Shown one piece after another: positions 2,784 to 11,048 of a stretch of DNA of 64,000 nt; position 1 is the stretch's first letter, and each line of letters opens with the position of its first letter. This stretch comes from Gemmatimonas aurantiaca T-27 (GTDB taxonomy: Bacteria > Gemmatimonadota > Gemmatimonadetes > Gemmatimonadales > Gemmatimonadaceae), in NCBI RefSeq assembly GCF_000010305.1, contig NC_012489.1, positions 3,479,646-3,543,645 of the forward strand, in the 5' to 3' direction. The notes beneath the pieces were generated by a model. The model had not been told where the DNA came from. It made no database searches and saw only the letters and a list, made by a program, of their open reading frames with translations. Position numbers and translations under genes: made by a program.

Positions 2784-3827
2784 ATGCGACTCACCACTCA
2801 ACGACCGGGCTTCGGTCTTCTGCGTGCCTCTGCCCTGCTCGCCGTGTTGACGGCGTGCACCCCAGCAGACAAGCCGGCCAGCCAGGCCACTTTTGCCGAC
2901 GCGGCCATGGAAGAGCTGCGTCTCGACAGCGTACGTGTCGGCGACGTGATGGTGCCCACGCGCGAAGGATTGGTGAAGGTGCCCGGTGGCCGAGTCTTTG
3001 TGCGACAGATCGGCAATGGCCGCGGGATTCCATTGCTTGCGCTGCACGGTGGCCCGGGCGGCACGTCGTGCCGCTTCGAGACGCTGGCCTCACTCGCATC
3101 AGACCGTCCGGTGATCTTCTACGATCAACTCGGTTCAGGACGTTCTGATCATCCGTCCGACACGTCGCTCTGGCGCGTGCCGCGGTTTGTGGAGGAAGTG
3201 ACGGCGGTCCGTCAGGCGCTGGCACTCGACTCACTCCACCTGCTGGGACATTCGTGGGGTGGTGCGCTGGCTGCAGAGTACATGGCCGCAGCCAAGCCCA
3301 CCGGTGTCAAGTCGGTGTTGTTCAGCAGCCCGCTCATCGACACCCCACGCTGGATCGCCGATGCCAATTTGCTGCGCACACAGCTCCCCGACTCCATCCG
3401 TCGTGTGCTCGATGAAAACGAAGCACGGGGGACGCTCGATGCGCCGGCCTACAAGGTGGCAACGGACACGTTCTACGGACGGCATGTGCGCCGTCTGCCG
3501 GTTGGCAGTGAGCCGCGCTGTGAAGGCGTCGCAGGCAACGACACCATCTATCGGCAGATGTGGGGACCCACCGAGTTTCTGAGCAACGGTTCGCTGCGTA
3601 CGTGGACTCGCGCCGCGGATCTGCCGGCCATCACCGCGCCGACCCTGTTCATCGCGGGTGAGTTCGACGAAGCACGCCCGGAAACACTCGAACAGTTCCG
3701 GGCCAGCATGCCCGACGCACGACTGGTGTCCATTCCTGGCGCCGCTCATGCCGCCATGCGTGAGAAGCCTGCGGAGTATCTGGACGCCCTGCGCGCCTTC
3801 CTGCGCGAGGTGGAGTCGCGGAAGTAG
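2784..3827 (+). CDS. Alpha/beta-hydrolase lipoprotein, proline iminopeptidase-like
   Basis: A 347-residue hydrolase. A lipobox (LTAC, Cys25) follows the hydrophobic segment LLRASALLAVLT, so it should be lipid-anchored in the envelope. The oxyanion motif HGGPGGTS sits at residues 88-95, the nucleophile elbow GHSWGG at 155-160 (Ser157), and a C-terminal Asp (GEFDEA) and His (GAAHAAM) complete the triad. HGGPGG together with GHSWGG is typical of the proline iminopeptidase/tricorn-interacting factor group (family S33), which removes N-terminal residues from peptides. Exact substrate is unknown. The trpS leader region begins only 23 bases after its stop codon. Confidence 0.82.
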   Translation: MRLTTQRPGFGLLRASALLAVLTACTPADKPASQATFADAAMEELRLDSVRVGDVMVPTREGLVKVPGGRVFVRQIGNGRGIPLLALHGGPGGTSCRFETLASLASDRPVIFYDQLGSGRSDHPSDTSLWRVPRFVEEVTAVRQALALDSLHLLGHSWGGALAAEYMAAAKPTGVKSVLFSSPLIDTPRWIADANLLRTQLPDSIRRVLDENEARGTLDAPAYKVATDTFYGRHVRRLPVGSEPRCEGVAGNDTIYRQMWGPTEFLSNGSLRTWTRAADLPAITAPTLFIAGEFDEARPETLEQFRASMPDARLVSIPGAAHAAMREKPAEYLDALRAFLREVESRK

Positions 3828-3850
3828 GATCGTTTCACTAGGTTTCTGAT

Positions 3851-3943
3851 ATGTCTCTTGCCCGCCTCACGTCAGGTTTCACGTCATGCGCATGGTGGCG
3901 GCCGCTTTCCCAAGCGGTCCCGTTGCGCGTGCGTGCCAGATAG
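3851..3943 (+). CDS. Candidate trp leader peptide with tandem Trp codons (30 residues)
   Basis: A short reading frame, ATG at 3851 and TAG at 3941, encodes a 30-residue peptide. Codons 15 and 16 are adjacent TGG TGG (3893-3898), giving the core CAWWRPL. A weak Shine-Dalgarno (AGG) lies eight bases upstream. It sits directly in front of the hairpins at 3900-3985 and of trpS. Tandem Trp codons ahead of a tryptophanyl-tRNA synthetase gene fit a ribosome-stalling leader. The peptide itself would have no function. Two adjacent Trp codons in so short a frame are unlikely by chance, but expression is unproven. Confidence 0.65.
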   Translation: MSLARLTSGFTSCAWWRPLSQAVPLRVRAR

Positions 3944-3985
3944 GTCGGCACACCAACCCCCGGGCCGCTCGATGTGAGCGGCCCG
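3900..3985 (+). promoter_or_regulatory. Putative tryptophan transcription attenuator (1:2, 2:3 and 3:4 hairpins) upstream of trpS
   Basis: Three mutually exclusive pairings can be drawn. 1:2 hairpin: GGCCGCTT (3900-3907) with AAGCGGTC (3912-3919), eight pairs including one G-U, starting right after the Trp codons. 2:3 antiterminator: AGCGGTCC (3913-3920) with GGGCCGCT (3962-3969). 3:4 terminator: CGGGCCGCTC (3961-3970) with GAGCGGCCCG (3976-3985), ten perfect pairs around a five-base loop. The bases after the hairpin are only moderately T-rich (TTGCATTT), which weakens the terminator call. The geometry matches classical ribosome-mediated attenuation: a ribosome stalled at 3893-3898 frees strand 2, while one that reads on to the stop codon at 3941 masks it. 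Confidence 0.65.
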
Positions 3986-4053
3986 TTGCATTTGCAGGCA
4001 GGGCCCTGCCACGAGGGCACACATCGAGCGATCCGACACACGGAGTCTCTCGC

Positions 4054-5139
4054 ATGTCTTCGCCCTCCACTGCGTCTGTCGATTCTCTCTCTGCCGTTGC
4101 ACCGGCGGCCCCGGTTCTCGCGGCCCCTGTCGGCTCGGCCGTCACGGCGGCGGACATTGTACTCACCGGCGATCGACCCACCGGCCGGCTGCACCTGGGT
4201 CACTATGCAGGCTCGTTGCAGTCCCGCCTCGCACTGCAAGGTCGCTGTGCACAAACCATTGTTGTCGCCGACCTGCAGGCGCTGACCGACAACGCCGGCC
4301 GACCCGCACACGTCGCCGCGCATGTGCGGGAGGTGGTGAGTGACTATCTCGCGGTTGGACTCGATCCGGCCCAAACGACCATCGCGCTGCAATCGCGGCT
4401 GCCAGCACTCGCCGAACTCACGATGTTGTACCTGAATCTCGTCACGGTCGCCCGACTGGAACGCAATCCCACCGTGCGCGCAGAAATCGAGATGCGCGGA
4501 TTCGCGCGGGATATTCCGGCGGGCTTTTTGTGTTACCCGGTATCGCAGGCGGCCGACATCACCGCCTTTCGCGCGACCGTGGTGCCGGTGGGCGAGGATC
4601 AGTTGCCGATGATCGAATTGTCCAACGAGATCGTGCGTCGGGTGAATCGCACGACAGGCACCGAGGTGCTGCCAGAATGCCGCGCCATGTTGTCGGACAC
4701 ACCACGCCTGCCCGGCATCGATGGGCGCAAGGCCAGCAAGTCGCTGGGCAATGCGATTTCACTGAGTGCCACCACGGCGGAAGTGCGCGAGCTGGTGATG
4801 GCGATGTACACCGACCCCGCACACGCGCGGGTGTCCGATCCCGGTCAGGTGGAGGGCAATGTGGTGTTTGCCTATCTCGACGCGTTCGATCCGGCCACCG
4901 AAGAAGTTGCGGACCTCAAGCAGCACTACGCACGTGGTGGCCTGGGTGACGTGACCCTCAAGCGTCGCCTCATCGAGGTGTTGCACAACATGCTCGAACC
5001 CATCCGCGAGCGGCGCCTGATGTTGACCGCGCAATCGGATCTTGTGGACGATGTGCTCGCGGACGGTACACGGACAGCACGCCTTCGCACGGAGGCGGTA
5101 CTGCACGATGTGCGTCAGGCGTTTTCGCTCACATCATGA
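4054..5139 (+). CDS. trpS: Tryptophanyl-tRNA synthetase
   Basis: The 361-residue enzyme charges tRNA-Trp using ATP. It is a class I synthetase: the HIGH motif appears as HLGH (residues 47-50) within TGDRPTGRLHLGHY, and the KMSKS motif as KASKS (226-230) within DGRKASKSLGN. Other family stretches are visible, such as GFLCYPVSQAADI and PVGEDQLPMIELSNEIVRR. The first 33 residues, Ala/Ser-rich, are an extension relative to typical bacterial TrpRS. The ATG at 4054 was chosen because of the ACGGAG ribosome-binding site and because the upstream part of the open frame overlaps the leader peptide and hairpins. It probably responds to charged tRNA-Trp through the attenuator at 3851-3985. Confidence 0.95.
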   Translation: MSSPSTASVDSLSAVAPAAPVLAAPVGSAVTAADIVLTGDRPTGRLHLGHYAGSLQSRLALQGRCAQTIVVADLQALTDNAGRPAHVAAHVREVVSDYLAVGLDPAQTTIALQSRLPALAELTMLYLNLVTVARLERNPTVRAEIEMRGFARDIPAGFLCYPVSQAADITAFRATVVPVGEDQLPMIELSNEIVRRVNRTTGTEVLPECRAMLSDTPRLPGIDGRKASKSLGNAISLSATTAEVRELVMAMYTDPAHARVSDPGQVEGNVVFAYLDAFDPATEEVADLKQHYARGGLGDVTLKRRLIEVLHNMLEPIRERRLMLTAQSDLVDDVLADGTRTARLRTEAVLHDVRQAFSLTS

Positions 5140-5162: not shown

Positions 5163-5197
5163 GAGTGAACCTGCACACTCAACCTGCAGGTTCACTC
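5163..5197. terminator. Bidirectional terminator hairpin between trpS and the convergent gene
   Basis: A perfect 12-base stem, GAGTGAACCTGC (5163-5174) with GCAGGTTCACTC (5186-5197), around an 11-base loop, lies between the trpS stop codon and the convergent gene, overlapping the last codons of the latter. There is no strong T tract on either side. Its position between converging genes supports a shared transcription end. Confidence 0.55.
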
Positions 5198-6648
5198 GCT
5201 GGCGTTGGTGGCTTGGCACTGGCGCCGGTTTGTTTGCCGTCCACCCACACACCAAACGCCGCGCCGATAAAGGCAAAGGCAAACACGCCCAACGTGGACA
5301 GCAGCGCATTGCCGATGGGCACCTGCGTGAGATTCACTCCCAGTGAGACCCACGCGGTCACGGACAACACGGCGCCAAGTACGGCATAGAGGTACTTGCG
5401 CGCCTGCCCCGTGCGACGACGTTTGCCGCGCAGGTCCACGAAGAGCGCACCGGCCAGTCCGCCGAGCAAGATCGAAAGCACGAATCGGATAGGCCAGACG
5501 GAATTCAGGACCACCGACGTACCGATCACGCCGTTGCCGGCCGCACTGAGGCGAAACGTGCCGATGTCCTCTGCCGTCACTTTCACTCGCACAGAACCAC
5601 CGGGTTCGATGGTCGCGGTATCGGGCTCCACACGCGCTGACCCACCACTGATGCGCACCCGCACCGGGCGACCCAGCGAGGCCCCATAGGTACCGATGGT
5701 CACCCATCGGGGCTCTGCACCAAAGGCCTGGAATTGTGGTGGTGGATTTTCAAAGCGCAGTACCGTGGGCAAGGCCAGACTGATCCGCACTTGTTCGCCG
5801 GCATCCAGTCCATTGGCGTGCAGATGCAGTGCCACCGAGTCCGCCGCATTGATGGTGGTCACCGCCACTCGGGCTGCGTCCACGCTGCCAGCGGGGAACG
5901 TGATCTGATCGGGACTCACCGTCGCTTCGGTCACCAGACTGATGCCCACCGGACCGGAGAGCGGCGCCACACTGCCATCACCATTGGCCGAACGCAGACC
6001 AACGAGGACCTGCCCGGTGAATCGGTCGCGTTCACTGTCGTACCCCAGCCGCGACGGATGAATCACGTACGGCCGCCACGCACGCACGGCGCCAGACGTG
6101 CCCTGCGGCCCCACAATATCGATGGGCACATCGATCACCACGACGTCTGCATCCGCTACCGCACTCGGCGGACGGACCGCCTCGACGGCCGGTTCCACAC
6201 TCGGTTGCGCACCCGAGCCACTTCCCGATCCTGGACGAGGTCTGGTTCCGCTGCCCGCGCCGCTACTTCCACTGCTTCCAGCGGATGGCTCGAGCTGGAT
6301 CCCATTCATGCGTGCCCGATCGAGTACCGCTTTCTGTATCGTCGCCGACGCCGGTCGCGCCACCGAATCACTGCGCGCCAACACCACAGCACCAACCGGT
6401 ACCTGCACGGAGTTCGCTTCGACCGGACTGCGCACCTCCTGCACGGCACCGGACGGCATGGTGACCTTCATCTGTCCCTGCTCCAGCTTCTTCTGCACCG
6501 CCACCGGCAAACGGCTCTTCTGAATCGACGCCTTGGCCTGCGCGCCAATGGTGGCGGGCGACCATACCGCAAATATCACGGCGCTCAACAGCAGCGTGGC
6601 GTGCCGGCGGATGCGCACGCCTTTCCGGCGATGACGGCGAACACACAT
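5179..6648 (-). CDS. Exported/membrane protein with Ig-like region and C-terminal membrane segments; unknown function
   Basis: I do not recognise this 489-residue protein. From the ATG at 6648 it has a basic N-terminus, a hydrophobic segment and a likely signal cleavage site (TIGAQA). A Gly/Ser/Pro-rich linker lies near residues 125-150. The centre is beta-rich and contains a probable Ig-like domain (SARVEPDTATIEPGGSVRV). Three hydrophobic segments follow near the C-terminus (FVLSILLGGLAGALFV, YLYAVLGAVLSVTAWVSLGV, LLSTLGVFAFAFIGAAFGVWV) with a basic RGKRRR loop between the first two. It is therefore probably membrane-anchored with a large domain outside. It is the last gene of a three-gene minus-strand block, 68 bases after the 1443-residue protein. 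Confidence 0.6.
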   Translation of the reverse strand: MCVRRHRRKGVRIRRHATLLLSAVIFAVWSPATIGAQAKASIQKSRLPVAVQKKLEQGQMKVTMPSGAVQEVRSPVEANSVQVPVGAVVLARSDSVARPASATIQKAVLDRARMNGIQLEPSAGSSGSSGAGSGTRPRPGSGSGSGAQPSVEPAVEAVRPPSAVADADVVVIDVPIDIVGPQGTSGAVRAWRPYVIHPSRLGYDSERDRFTGQVLVGLRSANGDGSVAPLSGPVGISLVTEATVSPDQITFPAGSVDAARVAVTTINAADSVALHLHANGLDAGEQVRISLALPTVLRFENPPPQFQAFGAEPRWVTIGTYGASLGRPVRVRISGGSARVEPDTATIEPGGSVRVKVTAEDIGTFRLSAAGNGVIGTSVVLNSVWPIRFVLSILLGGLAGALFVDLRGKRRRTGQARKYLYAVLGAVLSVTAWVSLGVNLTQVPIGNALLSTLGVFAFAFIGAAFGVWVDGKQTGASAKPPTPASEPAG

Positions 6649-6716
6649 CGACAACTCCGATGTCGGAGTGACACTGGTCGTTCGCGTGAGCCACGCCGCA
6701 GAGGTGCGCCATGCCC

Positions 6717-9700
6717 TCACGTGAGTTCGGTGTGCTCAACATACACCATACGGCGTCCCTTGCTGGTGAGTCTGCTGTCGTACGGCTGAGCGTCGTCGGA
6801 CAGGTACTCCTCGAATTCGGCTACCACCAGCCGGAAGCGCTTGAGCGCCGACGGTGCCTCGGGCAACGTGACACTCCCGTCCCACATGACCGGCCACACC
6901 ATCGTGGCGTTCACCAGATCCTCCGCCACGATGGCTTCGTATTCGAGTCGCGTCATCAACTCCCTCGCACGAGTCGCGCCGGCCGCATTGTGCACCATCG
7001 GCGGGGTGACGTCCGCGTTGCGTGGCGTCACACCCGCGCGAACGACCGGCGTACGTGTCGCGGGCCGGTAGGTGGGTGGTGGCGTGATCACGCCGTCGGC
7101 CACACGCGACCAACCAAAGTCTTCGCCGCGTGCCGCATCGAGCTGCTCCACCCACACTTCCACGACGTTGGTTTTCGAGATATCTCCGGGCACGAACTGC
7201 AGGATCTGGCCATTGGGTCCGGGCTGTTCCAAACGCTGCCGCCACGCCTCGGCAAACCCCGACGACTCTTCTGGACGATGGCCATGCACCGTGACCGCAC
7301 GCTTGGTGGCCGTGGTGCGCTTCACGGACAGCCAACGGTCGGGTGCCAATGCGGAGAATTCACACATCACCACCGTGGAGAGCCAGGCCCCGTCCACCGA
7401 CGTGGGCTGGTAGCGTGCCAGCGCCAGACGCACAAAGGGGAAGTACGCCTCACCATGACGAATTTCGATATCACAGTACCAGAGCTTGCGATCGGGGTCC
7501 CACATCACGTCGTGCGGCGCCACATCGACCAGGTTGATTCCCCAGCCCACCGGCAACCCCGCATGCGGGATGCTGTTGATACGGAACGGATGTGGTGGCT
7601 GATCCGCTTCCACCGTCGGCGTGCCCGGTGGCAGCCATGCCCCGGTGGTATCGGCTCCCGTACGCGCACGCGGGAAGCGGGCGAGTGTCGGCGCCACCCC
7701 TTCGACGAAGGGCGACTTCCACACCGGATCGTTGCCCCACTGCGTGACGACATCCTTGTAGGGACCACCATTGGGTTCGATCGGCTGACCGGCAGGTGGC
7801 AATACCACCGCCAGCATCTCGCCATAACCCGTGGCATTCCACGGGCGATCCAACCACACGCGCAGACCGCTGCCTCGACGCCAGCTCGTCTGATCTCCGT
7901 CGTTGCGCTTGCTGCGTGACCATCCGAAGGTGGGCATCACATACAACACTTCCGGCGCTGGTGGCGGTGCGGAGCTGGGTGCCCAGATACGCTCCATGTT
8001 GCTTGTCACCGTCAGACGCGAGGCATCCCGCGCATCGTCCCGTTCGGTGGGCAATTGCCGAGGCGAATTGGGCGTGACCGGTGCGGGCACATATTCACGG
8101 AACCGCGTGGTGCCCACCAACTGATACTCTACGCGACGATAGCGCGTGTCGCCGAAGTCATGCACCTGCGGACGAGCCTCACGATCGGATCCGACCACGC
8201 CGCCCATGGCCGGGCCGAACTCGATGCGGTCGGGCTCTTCCGGATCGGGCACCACGTGCTGAACGATGCCGGCATATCCCTGTGGATCGGTGATCTTCAC
8301 CGAGAATGCCAGATCGGTCTTGTTGCGATTGGAGGGATTGCCCAACAGCCCACCTTCCACCGGCTCGTTCCACGTGGCCATGAGGTCGATGCGATCGGTG
8401 GTCATGCGGTGCACGCGGGCCTTCACGCTGGGTTGCACCCAGGTGGCTCCGCGAGGACGCACGATGGCGTACTCATAGATCTTTGGCGCGCGGAGTGGAC
8501 GCTGTACTGCGTGCACGATGTCCATCTCCCGCCACGGCGTGAGTGGCCAGAGTGTGCCCGCACGCGCGCGACGCGCGAGAGCCGGCGTACGCAGCCCCTC
8601 TGGCACCCAATTCCACACGCCCATCAGGGCGAGTTGTTCGTCGGTGAGCTTGACGGACAGGCGCAGCGTGGCCCGCAGTCCCTTCGGTGCCGGCACAAGC
8701 AACGTGCGCGTCGCTTCGTCGAATCGCGGTCGTTCGCGTTCCCCTTCATACACGCGCAACATGATCGGCGAGATATCGGGCCAGCTCGCGCCCTGCGCGT
8801 ACAGTGGGATGGTGATCACGTCCGGCGGACCTTCCCACGGATAGTTGATCAGCCGCGCCGACAGATGGGTGGCCAGAGGATCGGGCAGATACGGCAACGT
8901 GATCGCATCGGCGGGCAAGGCCGTATAAGTCACCGTGTCCCCACCGCGCGTATCCAGGTCCACCGTGGACGGTTCATCGTCCCGCTCGGCCAGCAGGGCA
9001 TACTGCGCCGCGCTGCCCCAGTTGGGACCGTCGCACACACCATGCAATTCCGCCTCACGCTGCGACACCCGCGGCGACATCGCCCAGCGACGCGCCGTTT
9101 CAGTGGACGGTGTGCGATCGTCGAACTTGTCGTTGAAGGTACGAATGGCCATGTGCGCCATGGACTCACCCGGTCCCGGCGGCACGACCGTGCGCTTGTC
9201 GCCGACCAACGCAAACAGCGGCGGCGCCACGGGTTCATAGCGCCAGTAGGGTGTGGCCGCATCTCGCGACTCCTGATCACCGGCATAGTTGCCCGTGGTG
9301 GGCGGCAGCGAGTTGCCGGCGAGGTCCACCATGCGGGCCCGCACACCGTACACCCGTCCATAGCGCAGACGCGGCAACGAACCCGGTGCGGCGGCAAAGG
9401 CGGTGCGCAGCGGGATACCGTCGGGCACCACCGGCGAAGGATCAGCGACTTCATCGTTGATGCCAACCGACAGACCGGGTGATGGCGCCACCAGACTCCA
9501 CCCACGCCACACGGTCATGATTTCATGCAACGACACCATGTCGGGATAGCTGCCATCTGCGGCACTGGTGGTGACCAATCGGATGGTGCCTTCTTCGCGC
9601 ACGGCCTGCACAGCCAGTGTGCTATCGGAGAAGCCATAGTTGCTCAGACGTTCGCATAGGGAACGCCACTGCGTGGTGGTGCCATCCCAGATGTCAACGC

Positions 9701-11048
9701 GCCAACCGCGCAGCAGGTCTTCGGCATGCAAGTCCACGTGCAGCCCCAACCCAGGCACGGGGCCGGTGCCCCCTCGCCGATTGAAGAGCTGCTCCATGCG
9801 GCGGTTCAGCGTGTCATTGCGGTCGAAGGTCTTGGTCAAGCTGTCGCCTCTGCCGCGGTGCACCAGCATCAACCCACCATTGCGAACGGCAGGCGCTCCG
9901 GCCCGTCGGGGCAGTTTGGTCACCGGATCCACGTGCCGAGCTTCCCGTTCGTGTGCGGCCAAGGAACGGGCAAAGTTCATCAACTTGAGGCCGGCACCAT
10001 CCACATCGGCCTGCAGCAGCGCCACCCGGTTCGGATCCATGCGCAGCAGCCCATCGCGCACCTGCAGGTCTTTCCCATCCGCGGGCGGCCGCGGCACAGG
10101 CGCGAAGCTCTTGCTGGCGAACTTCGTACGGGTGCGCGGCGATGCGTCCCGTCGAACCACCACCGGCTCGCCGGCTCTGGCGCGAGGCAGCTCCACGGCA
10201 AAGGACACGGGTATGTCATCTCCCGCGCGCAGGCGCCCAACGGGCACAGTGAAGTCGACTACCAACCCCAGTCGCCGCAGCAACAACGGATACTGGTTCA
10301 TCGCCGACACGATGCGATGAAAGTCGAGCGAACTCACAAAGTCGTCGGCCTTGATCGTGGCGCGTTCGTGGGTCCGCCAGGTCACCTTGTTGCGTTCGTC
10401 CTCCGGCGTATACGACTCGCTGCGTTGTTTGGCCAGCGGTGTATGAAAGAGCTGAAAGGTGCTCAGCATGGTGCCCGCACCGGCGAGACCCTTGAATCCG
10501 GTGCGCTGCCACTCGTCCACCTCACCCTCGATGTCCCGTGTGGGCTCCTTCTTGTTGTCACGCAGCCCGTCCACGGCCTGCACGCCTTCGATCAATGACT
10601 TGAAGGCATTGCTCGCGCGCAGCTCACCAATGGAAGGCAAATCTTCGCCGGCGGTGACGGTGAGCGACCCATACACCTTCCGAATGGCGTCGTGCAGGGC
10701 CACCGCATCGAACGACAGGACCCGCGTGTCGGTGTGGTCGGTCATCTTGTACGACTGCACACGTGTGGTGGTTGGCAACAGCGCGCGCCACACCGCACTG
10801 TCGGCCACGCCGATGCTGGCATCCACATGGTCGGCGGTGAGGGCGATTGCGGTGTCACCGATGGTCACCGTGATCTGCGAACGCCGCAGCGTATCCGGCC
10901 AATCCTCGAAGTCGGCAAACGAGGACAGGGAAGGTGGTGCCGACTCGGGCTCGAGACGCGGTGAGAGCAGCAGAGAAATGCGGAGGGCACGACCGTCGGC
11001 GGAGACGCCATTCGGCAGCGCGGTCCAGATGAGAGATTGCACGGGCAT
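6717..11048 (-). CDS. Very large protein of unknown family (1443 residues)
   Basis: No known domain is recognisable. The protein begins MPVQSLIWTALPNG, has no signal peptide or membrane segment, and is rich in Arg, Pro, Asp and Trp. Many short segments look like beta-sandwich strands, for example RVYGVRARMVDLAGNSLPP, which resembles Ig/fibronectin-type strands. One region (VDLHAEDLLRGWRVDIWD) may be lectin-like or part of a large repeat scaffold, but this is a guess. It follows the 1211-residue gene by only 6 bases, so the two are almost certainly co-transcribed and perhaps form a complex. No frameshift is visible over 4.3 kb, and codon use matches the rest of the window. Confidence 0.7.
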   Translation of the reverse strand: MPVQSLIWTALPNGVSADGRALRISLLLSPRLEPESAPPSLSSFADFEDWPDTLRRSQITVTIGDTAIALTADHVDASIGVADSAVWRALLPTTTRVQSYKMTDHTDTRVLSFDAVALHDAIRKVYGSLTVTAGEDLPSIGELRASNAFKSLIEGVQAVDGLRDNKKEPTRDIEGEVDEWQRTGFKGLAGAGTMLSTFQLFHTPLAKQRSESYTPEDERNKVTWRTHERATIKADDFVSSLDFHRIVSAMNQYPLLLRRLGLVVDFTVPVGRLRAGDDIPVSFAVELPRARAGEPVVVRRDASPRTRTKFASKSFAPVPRPPADGKDLQVRDGLLRMDPNRVALLQADVDGAGLKLMNFARSLAAHEREARHVDPVTKLPRRAGAPAVRNGGLMLVHRGRGDSLTKTFDRNDTLNRRMEQLFNRRGGTGPVPGLGLHVDLHAEDLLRGWRVDIWDGTTTQWRSLCERLSNYGFSDSTLAVQAVREEGTIRLVTTSAADGSYPDMVSLHEIMTVWRGWSLVAPSPGLSVGINDEVADPSPVVPDGIPLRTAFAAAPGSLPRLRYGRVYGVRARMVDLAGNSLPPTTGNYAGDQESRDAATPYWRYEPVAPPLFALVGDKRTVVPPGPGESMAHMAIRTFNDKFDDRTPSTETARRWAMSPRVSQREAELHGVCDGPNWGSAAQYALLAERDDEPSTVDLDTRGGDTVTYTALPADAITLPYLPDPLATHLSARLINYPWEGPPDVITIPLYAQGASWPDISPIMLRVYEGERERPRFDEATRTLLVPAPKGLRATLRLSVKLTDEQLALMGVWNWVPEGLRTPALARRARAGTLWPLTPWREMDIVHAVQRPLRAPKIYEYAIVRPRGATWVQPSVKARVHRMTTDRIDLMATWNEPVEGGLLGNPSNRNKTDLAFSVKITDPQGYAGIVQHVVPDPEEPDRIEFGPAMGGVVGSDREARPQVHDFGDTRYRRVEYQLVGTTRFREYVPAPVTPNSPRQLPTERDDARDASRLTVTSNMERIWAPSSAPPPAPEVLYVMPTFGWSRSKRNDGDQTSWRRGSGLRVWLDRPWNATGYGEMLAVVLPPAGQPIEPNGGPYKDVVTQWGNDPVWKSPFVEGVAPTLARFPRARTGADTTGAWLPPGTPTVEADQPPHPFRINSIPHAGLPVGWGINLVDVAPHDVMWDPDRKLWYCDIEIRHGEAYFPFVRLALARYQPTSVDGAWLSTVVMCEFSALAPDRWLSVKRTTATKRAVTVHGHRPEESSGFAEAWRQRLEQPGPNGQILQFVPGDISKTNVVEVWVEQLDAARGEDFGWSRVADGVITPPPTYRPATRTPVVRAGVTPRNADVTPPMVHNAAGATRARELMTRLEYEAIVAEDLVNATMVWPVMWDGSVTLPEAPSALKRFRLVVAEFEEYLSDDAQPYDSRLTSKGRRMVYVEHTELT

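Follow-up and report, generated by a model that had tools for sequence, protein, structure and literature searches.

A probable ribosome-mediated tryptophan attenuator before an auxiliary tryptophanyl-tRNA synthetase gene of Gemmatimonas aurantiaca T-27

Does the DNA in front of a tryptophanyl-tRNA synthetase (TrpRS) gene in Gemmatimonas aurantiaca T-27 form a tryptophan attenuator, and what would such a switch be doing on a trpS gene? The question was raised by an earlier note on the 64,000-nucleotide stretch of contig NC_012489.1 (positions 3,479,646 to 3,543,645, forward strand) that we refer to as the window. Based on the anatomy of the locus and its comparison with relatives, we conclude that the element is very probably a ribosome-mediated Trp attenuator that makes an auxiliary TrpRS, of the TrpRS-II type, inducible.

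Anatomy of the locus and identity of the gene

The features of the locus are collected in Table 1. The earlier note had described a 30-codon leader with tandem TGG codons before trpS, followed by the pairings 1:2 (3900-3919), 2:3 (3913-3920 with 3962-3969) and 3:4 (3961-3985). Translation confirms the leader (3851-3943), and all three stems were recovered at exactly the stated coordinates on refolding. The earlier note had also remarked, correctly, that strands 2 (AGCGGTCC) and 4 (AGCGGCCC) closely resemble each other and that the T tract is weak. The three pairings are mutually exclusive in the window. The attenuator region folded better than every one of 200 dinucleotide-shuffled sequences (z -3.4), and the three stems that follow the Trp codons, taken jointly, outscored all 40 shuffles to which they were compared. 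Apart from the 3:4 hairpin, the locus has no terminator-like site. On the 5' side of the attenuator, an alpha/beta hydrolase gene (Abhydrolase_1, 2784-3827) lies on the same strand and ends 23 nt before the leader ATG, while two minus-strand ORFs downstream of trpS (5179-6720, 513 aa, and 6717-11048, 1443 aa) have no Pfam match.

Table 1. Features of the trpS leader region, in window coordinates
Feature	Position	Strand	Remarks
-10-like hexamer TAGGTT	3839-3844	+	Putative promoter; weak match, score 3.5; ends 6 nt before leader ATG
Leader peptide ORF	3851-3943	+	30 codons; translates as MSLARLTSGFTSCAWWRPLSQAVPLRVRAR, then stop
Tandem regulatory Trp codons TGG TGG	3893-3898	+	From sequence
Strand 1	3900-3907	+	Pairs with 3912-3919; first base two bases past second Trp codon
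Strand 2	3912-3920	+	1:2 uses 3912-3919, 2:3 uses 3913-3920
Spacer hairpin in 2:3 loop	3929-3953	+	From RNA fold; holds leader stop codon (3941)
Strand 3	3961-3970	+	Partners: strand 2, strand 4 or strand 5
Strand 4	3976-3985	+	3:4 is a terminator-like hairpin of 10 bp
Weak T tract TTGCATTTGC	3986-3995	+	Tail of 3:4 hairpin
Strand 5 CACATCGAGCG	4020-4030	+	23 nt before trpS ATG
Shine-Dalgarno GGAG of trpS	4042-4045	+	From sequence
trpS, auxiliary TrpRS (TrpRS-II type)	4054-5139	+	Motifs GDRPTG, ADLQALTD, KASKS

Two TrpRS genes are present in the genome (4.64 Mb, one contig): the window copy and a second at C1:1065087-1066037, whose products are 37% identical. The second has the usual motifs GIQPSG and DYHAIT, and it groups with the TrpRS of the sampled genus-mates in our tree. 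The closest solved structure to the product of the window trpS is Deinococcus radiodurans TrpRS II (1yi8, 2a4m), with E 2e-106. Among 29 genomes of the same genus that were searched, no match to the window TrpRS exceeded 37% identity. A close ortholog is present in 16 other genomes of the family, and the named records among the closest relatives are Gemmatimonadaceae. Because a second, normal TrpRS is present and the orthologs have this distribution, the attenuated trpS is, as judged from sequence, a sporadic auxiliary TrpRS of the TrpRS-II type and not the housekeeping copy. The gene had been correctly identified as a trpS in the earlier note; in view of the second copy, the structure match and the tree, it encodes the accessory enzyme and not the main TrpRS.

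The window enzyme carries Gln where housekeeping TrpRS has the His of the DxHAIT motif (residues were numbered by a Geobacillus TrpRS sequence). We take this position to govern resistance to indolmycin-type inhibitors, and the Gln would then predict resistance of the window enzyme. We also observed that KASKS replaces the class I signature KMSKS in the window trpS (P0001) and in L133, L032, L006, L003 and L005, a feature common to one Legionella relative (L064). No WW leader was found upstream of the housekeeping trpS of the same genome, and no Trp leader upstream of its trpE, so the attenuator was rejected as a general feature of the Trp genes of this genome.

Conservation within Gemmatimonadota

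We compared 18 Gemmatimonadota orthologs, the window included, that share roughly 65% identity or above. In nine of them (the window and eight others), a leader with Trp codons precedes the same set of strands 2, 3 and 4. The leader pattern is WW in the window and L035, WWW in L133, L032 and L134, WYW in L006, WRW in L033, and a single W in L038 and L003. The other nine orthologs (L004, L034, L005, L036, L007, L135, L040, L037 and L039) have no Trp leader.

With the strands put in register by hand, standard pairs filled 78 of 81 cells in 2:3 and 80 of 81 in 3:4, compared to 30-53% when the strands were slid by one to three positions. In a MAFFT alignment of seven leaders, 3:4 is paired in 100% of cells and three of its pairs have changed on both sides, giving a covariation score above that of 500 of 500 shuffles. 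Stem 2:3 is 97% paired in the same seven Gemmatimonadota leaders, with no two-sided change, as expected given that strand 3 must fit two partners. An alignment of relatives had been proposed earlier as a check for conserved Trp codons and compensatory changes in the stems; the codons and stems proved conserved, with compensation seen in 3:4 and not in 2:3.

A covariance model built from the seven leaders has a single match in the genome of the window, which is the attenuator site (E 2.8e-18), and it recovers one trpS leader absent from the model, that of L003 (E 2.7e-6). Of the weaker matches that the model has in other parts of the phylum (E 1e-5 or higher), nine were inspected and set aside as GC-rich hairpins whose matched 5' end has no tandem Trp codons. 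Near-identical hairpins of the 3:4 type, with weak T tails, were also observed elsewhere in the phylum, as GGGCCGCTC..GAGCGGCCC or GGGGCGCTC..GAGCGCCCC (L160, L161, L165, L168, L172), and hairpins of this sequence type are possibly a common terminator type.

The same comparison bears on whether the leader could instead extend trpS at its N-terminus, or be an ORF that arose by chance and is followed by hairpins that are GC-rich noise. The frame from ATG 3886 is indeed open into trpS (ORF 3886-5139) and runs through the attenuator, and GC-rich DNA folds readily. However, this frame is interrupted by stops in seven of the nine leader-bearing orthologs, which rules out a conserved extension from an alternative start at 3886. 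Leaders with WW or WxW arise in 0.6-1.1% of shuffles, against a third or more of the real loci, and noise would explain neither the 3:4 covariation nor the recovery of the L003 leader by a model that did not contain it. We give such an origin next to no credence and regard it as already refuted by the comparative sequence data. Supported by its anatomy together with its conservation in relatives, the element is very probably, as the earlier note had read it, a real Trp attenuator before trpS, and it is not a chance arrangement.

Proposed mechanism and level of output

The hexamer TAGGTT of the window has the same 6-nt spacing to the leader ATG as TATATT, TATTAT, TATTTT and GATACT in L133, L032, L033 and L038. 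Of 43 leaders, 22 have a -10-like hexamer whose last base lies 0-7 nt before the ATG, compared to 2-5 in every other bin, and most leaders from Gemmatimonadota and Burkholderiales show a spacing of 6-8 nt (TATATT, TATTAT, TATTTT, TATACT). The placement of TATACT 6-8 nt before the leader ATG is very regular in the Burkholderiales loci L069, L071, L075, L082, L083, L087, L090, L097, L100, L102 and L112. No sigma-70-type promoter was found at the window locus. From the hexamer-to-ATG spacing across the family, we infer that transcription probably starts on or beside the leader ATG, and that the leader mRNA is therefore probably leaderless. A start downstream of 3898, which the earlier note had named as incompatible with attenuation, is not what this predicts; the predicted start falls at the leader ATG, with the caveat that the window's own box is weak.

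In the mechanism that we propose, transcription would begin at or beside this ATG. With plentiful Trp-tRNA(Trp), the ribosome would clear both Trp codons and 1:2 would form behind it, so that strand 3 could pair with strand 4, and the resulting 3:4 hairpin would end transcription before trpS. A ribosome positioned at the leader stop codon would leave strand 2 available to strand 1 and strand 3 available to strand 4. A ribosome halted with a Trp codon in its A site would extend about 12 nt further, which would cover strand 1 and not strand 2. When charged tRNA(Trp) is scarce, because Trp is lacking or the housekeeping TrpRS is blocked by an inhibitor, the ribosome would stall on the Trp codons and cover strand 1; strand 2 would then capture strand 3, 3:4 would be blocked, and trpS would be made. 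Induction by a lack of charged tRNA(Trp) would suit a spare TrpRS, which the cell would produce upon inhibition of the housekeeping enzyme.

The T tract behind 3:4 is poor in the window, and in the nearest relative, L133, the same hairpin is followed by CAGCATTTGC, with no T run, so intrinsic termination may be inefficient. A full T run stands directly after the 3:4 hairpin in L033, L038 and L134, and T runs follow 3:4 in several Gemmatimonadota and many beta- and gammaproteobacterial relatives. Termination at 3:4 could be Rho-assisted or based on pausing rather than intrinsic, which would fit the poor T tract of the window as well as the weakly tailed hairpins of the same type elsewhere in the phylum. 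We nevertheless hold this to be quite improbable, given that the full T runs in L033, L038 and L134 point to an intrinsic ancestor.

Strand 5 raises the question of a second output. It is the exact reverse complement of 3966-3976 (11 nt, strand 3 plus loop) and a further copy of the strand-4 motif, with p = 0.02 against shuffles in the window. A downstream complement of strand 3 was found at p <= 0.05 in 16 of 30 loci (Fisher p 1.6e-14, a value inflated by related sequences), and in L133 strand 5 changes in step with strand 3 (CGCTCGATGC/GCATCGAGCG). In five alphaproteobacterial members, flagged by a pattern search as having no short 3:4 hairpin, strand 5 is found 6-23 nt before the predicted trpS ATG (p 0.000-0.060). 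Lying near the trpS ribosome-binding site, strand 5 may possibly provide a second, translational output. In the alphaproteobacterial loci L062, L077, L078, L085 and L141, strand 3 can pair over a long range with a strand beside the ribosome-binding site, and in some of these a CTCC..GGAG hairpin follows that could mask the Shine-Dalgarno sequence.

It may also be that the leader and its 1:2 / 2:3 switch work as proposed while the output in the window is mainly translational, through 3:5, with 3:4 a weak or degenerate terminator. The T tails of the window and L133, the 11-nt complementarity, its upkeep in L133 through matching changes, and the five alphaproteobacterial members would all agree with this. 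Yet in the finished transcript 3:4 is the more stable (-109.7 kcal/mol, against -101.4 for 3:5), the T runs after 3:4 in other Gemmatimonadota and in beta- and gammaproteobacterial relatives speak for termination, and the computed accessibility of the trpS ribosome-binding site (RNA folding) changes in no clear direction. We consider a mainly translational output unlikely. As a tentative possibility, the trpS attenuators of Proteobacteria and Gemmatimonadota might form one large undescribed family in which a single strand 3 drives both a terminator (3:4) and translation (3:5), with lineages keeping one or both and the window leaning to the translational side.

Distribution beyond the phylum and relation to known systems

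An ATG-initiated leader with WW or WxW was found before trpS in 31 of 77 relatives from other phyla, compared to 1.1% in shuffles; Burkholderia, Herbaspirillum, Aeromonas, Photobacterium, Edwardsiella and alphaproteobacteria are among them. When 121 enzymes were placed in a tree, every leader-bearing row fell within one clade of 70 (support 99), made up of Proteobacteria and Gemmatimonadota, and none fell outside it. A clade of 18 (support 99) comprises the Gemmatimonadota and sits inside a set of 26 with mainly alphaproteobacterial rows (support 96). This placement suggests that the attenuator was probably already present in the ancestor of the large clade, entered Gemmatimonadota together with the gene, and was lost several times. 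The strands read GGCGGC / GCCGCC / GGCGGC in many Proteobacteria, and therefore the architecture has been preserved with different sequences. WW leaders before two housekeeping trpS genes (L027, L028) were set aside as chance, having no evident sequence in common with each other or with the attenuators.

The suggestion in the earlier note that attenuation of trpS is rare, named there only for an auxiliary trpRS of Streptomyces, does not survive this comparison, as such leaders are common in Proteobacteria. No Rfam family, Trp_leader included, reaches its gathering score, and nothing credible appears at E <= 10. A search of mostly open-access literature found no description of a proteobacterial and Gemmatimonadota trpS attenuator family. 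The family is apparently broader than the known cases and undescribed.

In kind, the window element is most likely closest to the ribosome-mediated attenuation of an auxiliary TrpRS known in Streptomyces. Attenuation of S. coelicolor trpRS1 was reportedly demonstrated in experiments by Vecchione and Sello in 2010, and S. coelicolor resembles the window in having an auxiliary TrpRS beside a housekeeping one. An attenuator before S. avermitilis trpS2 was predicted by Seliverstov et al. 2005 (PMC1262725), and the auxiliary trpS of Streptomyces, as in the window, is preceded by a Trp-codon leader and hairpins. TrpL2 before trpS of S. lividans has been reported as a leaderless transcript (PMC8079986), as the window leader probably is, but its leader MMTRTCTQLWRAA has one Trp where the window has WW, Streptomyces belongs to a different phylum, and the RNAs are likened by layout. 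Indolmycin resistance through an inducible second TrpRS has been documented in Streptomyces (PMC9437257, PMC6804068).

The E. coli-type trp operon attenuator (Rfam Trp_leader) shares with the window a tandem-Trp leader, strands 1 to 4 and the same logic. The window element differs in that it would control an aminoacyl-tRNA synthetase rather than biosynthesis, matches no Rfam family, and has an extra strand 5, a probably leaderless leader and a weak T tract. The uORFC-8-2 motif before cysS in Rhodobacterales (PMC8632094) is likewise a candidate ribosome-mediated attenuator with tandem cognate codons on an aminoacyl-tRNA synthetase gene, but it concerns cysteine and cysS and occurs in a different clade. 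Ribosome profiling in Caulobacter identified a small leader CDS before trpS (PMC4117421); the passages on it describe no attenuator structure, and the likeness to the window is one of a translated upstream leader ORF. Deinococcus radiodurans TrpRS II, whose structure is the closest to the window enzyme, is also an auxiliary TrpRS, but it was placed outside the leader-bearing clade in our tree.

These results indicate that auxiliary TrpRS genes under inducible control, which are known chiefly from Streptomyces, where they defend against antibiotics that inhibit TrpRS, are widespread in Gram-negative bacteria with an RNA switch of their own. Annotation pipelines overlook this switch because no Rfam family matches it. 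The loci also offer a natural series (3:4 only, 3:4 plus 3:5, and 3:5 only) in which the shift of an attenuator between transcriptional and translational output could be studied.

Some attenuated trpS copies lie on records filed as plasmids. The accessory-type trpS genes of the Klebsiella, E. coli plasmid pB379_2 and Salmonella records (L138, L139, L140) have leaders ending in RRWWLPA or RWWLPS and the same three-stem attenuator, and the E. coli pB379_2 copy was observed ~1 kb from an IS26 transposase.
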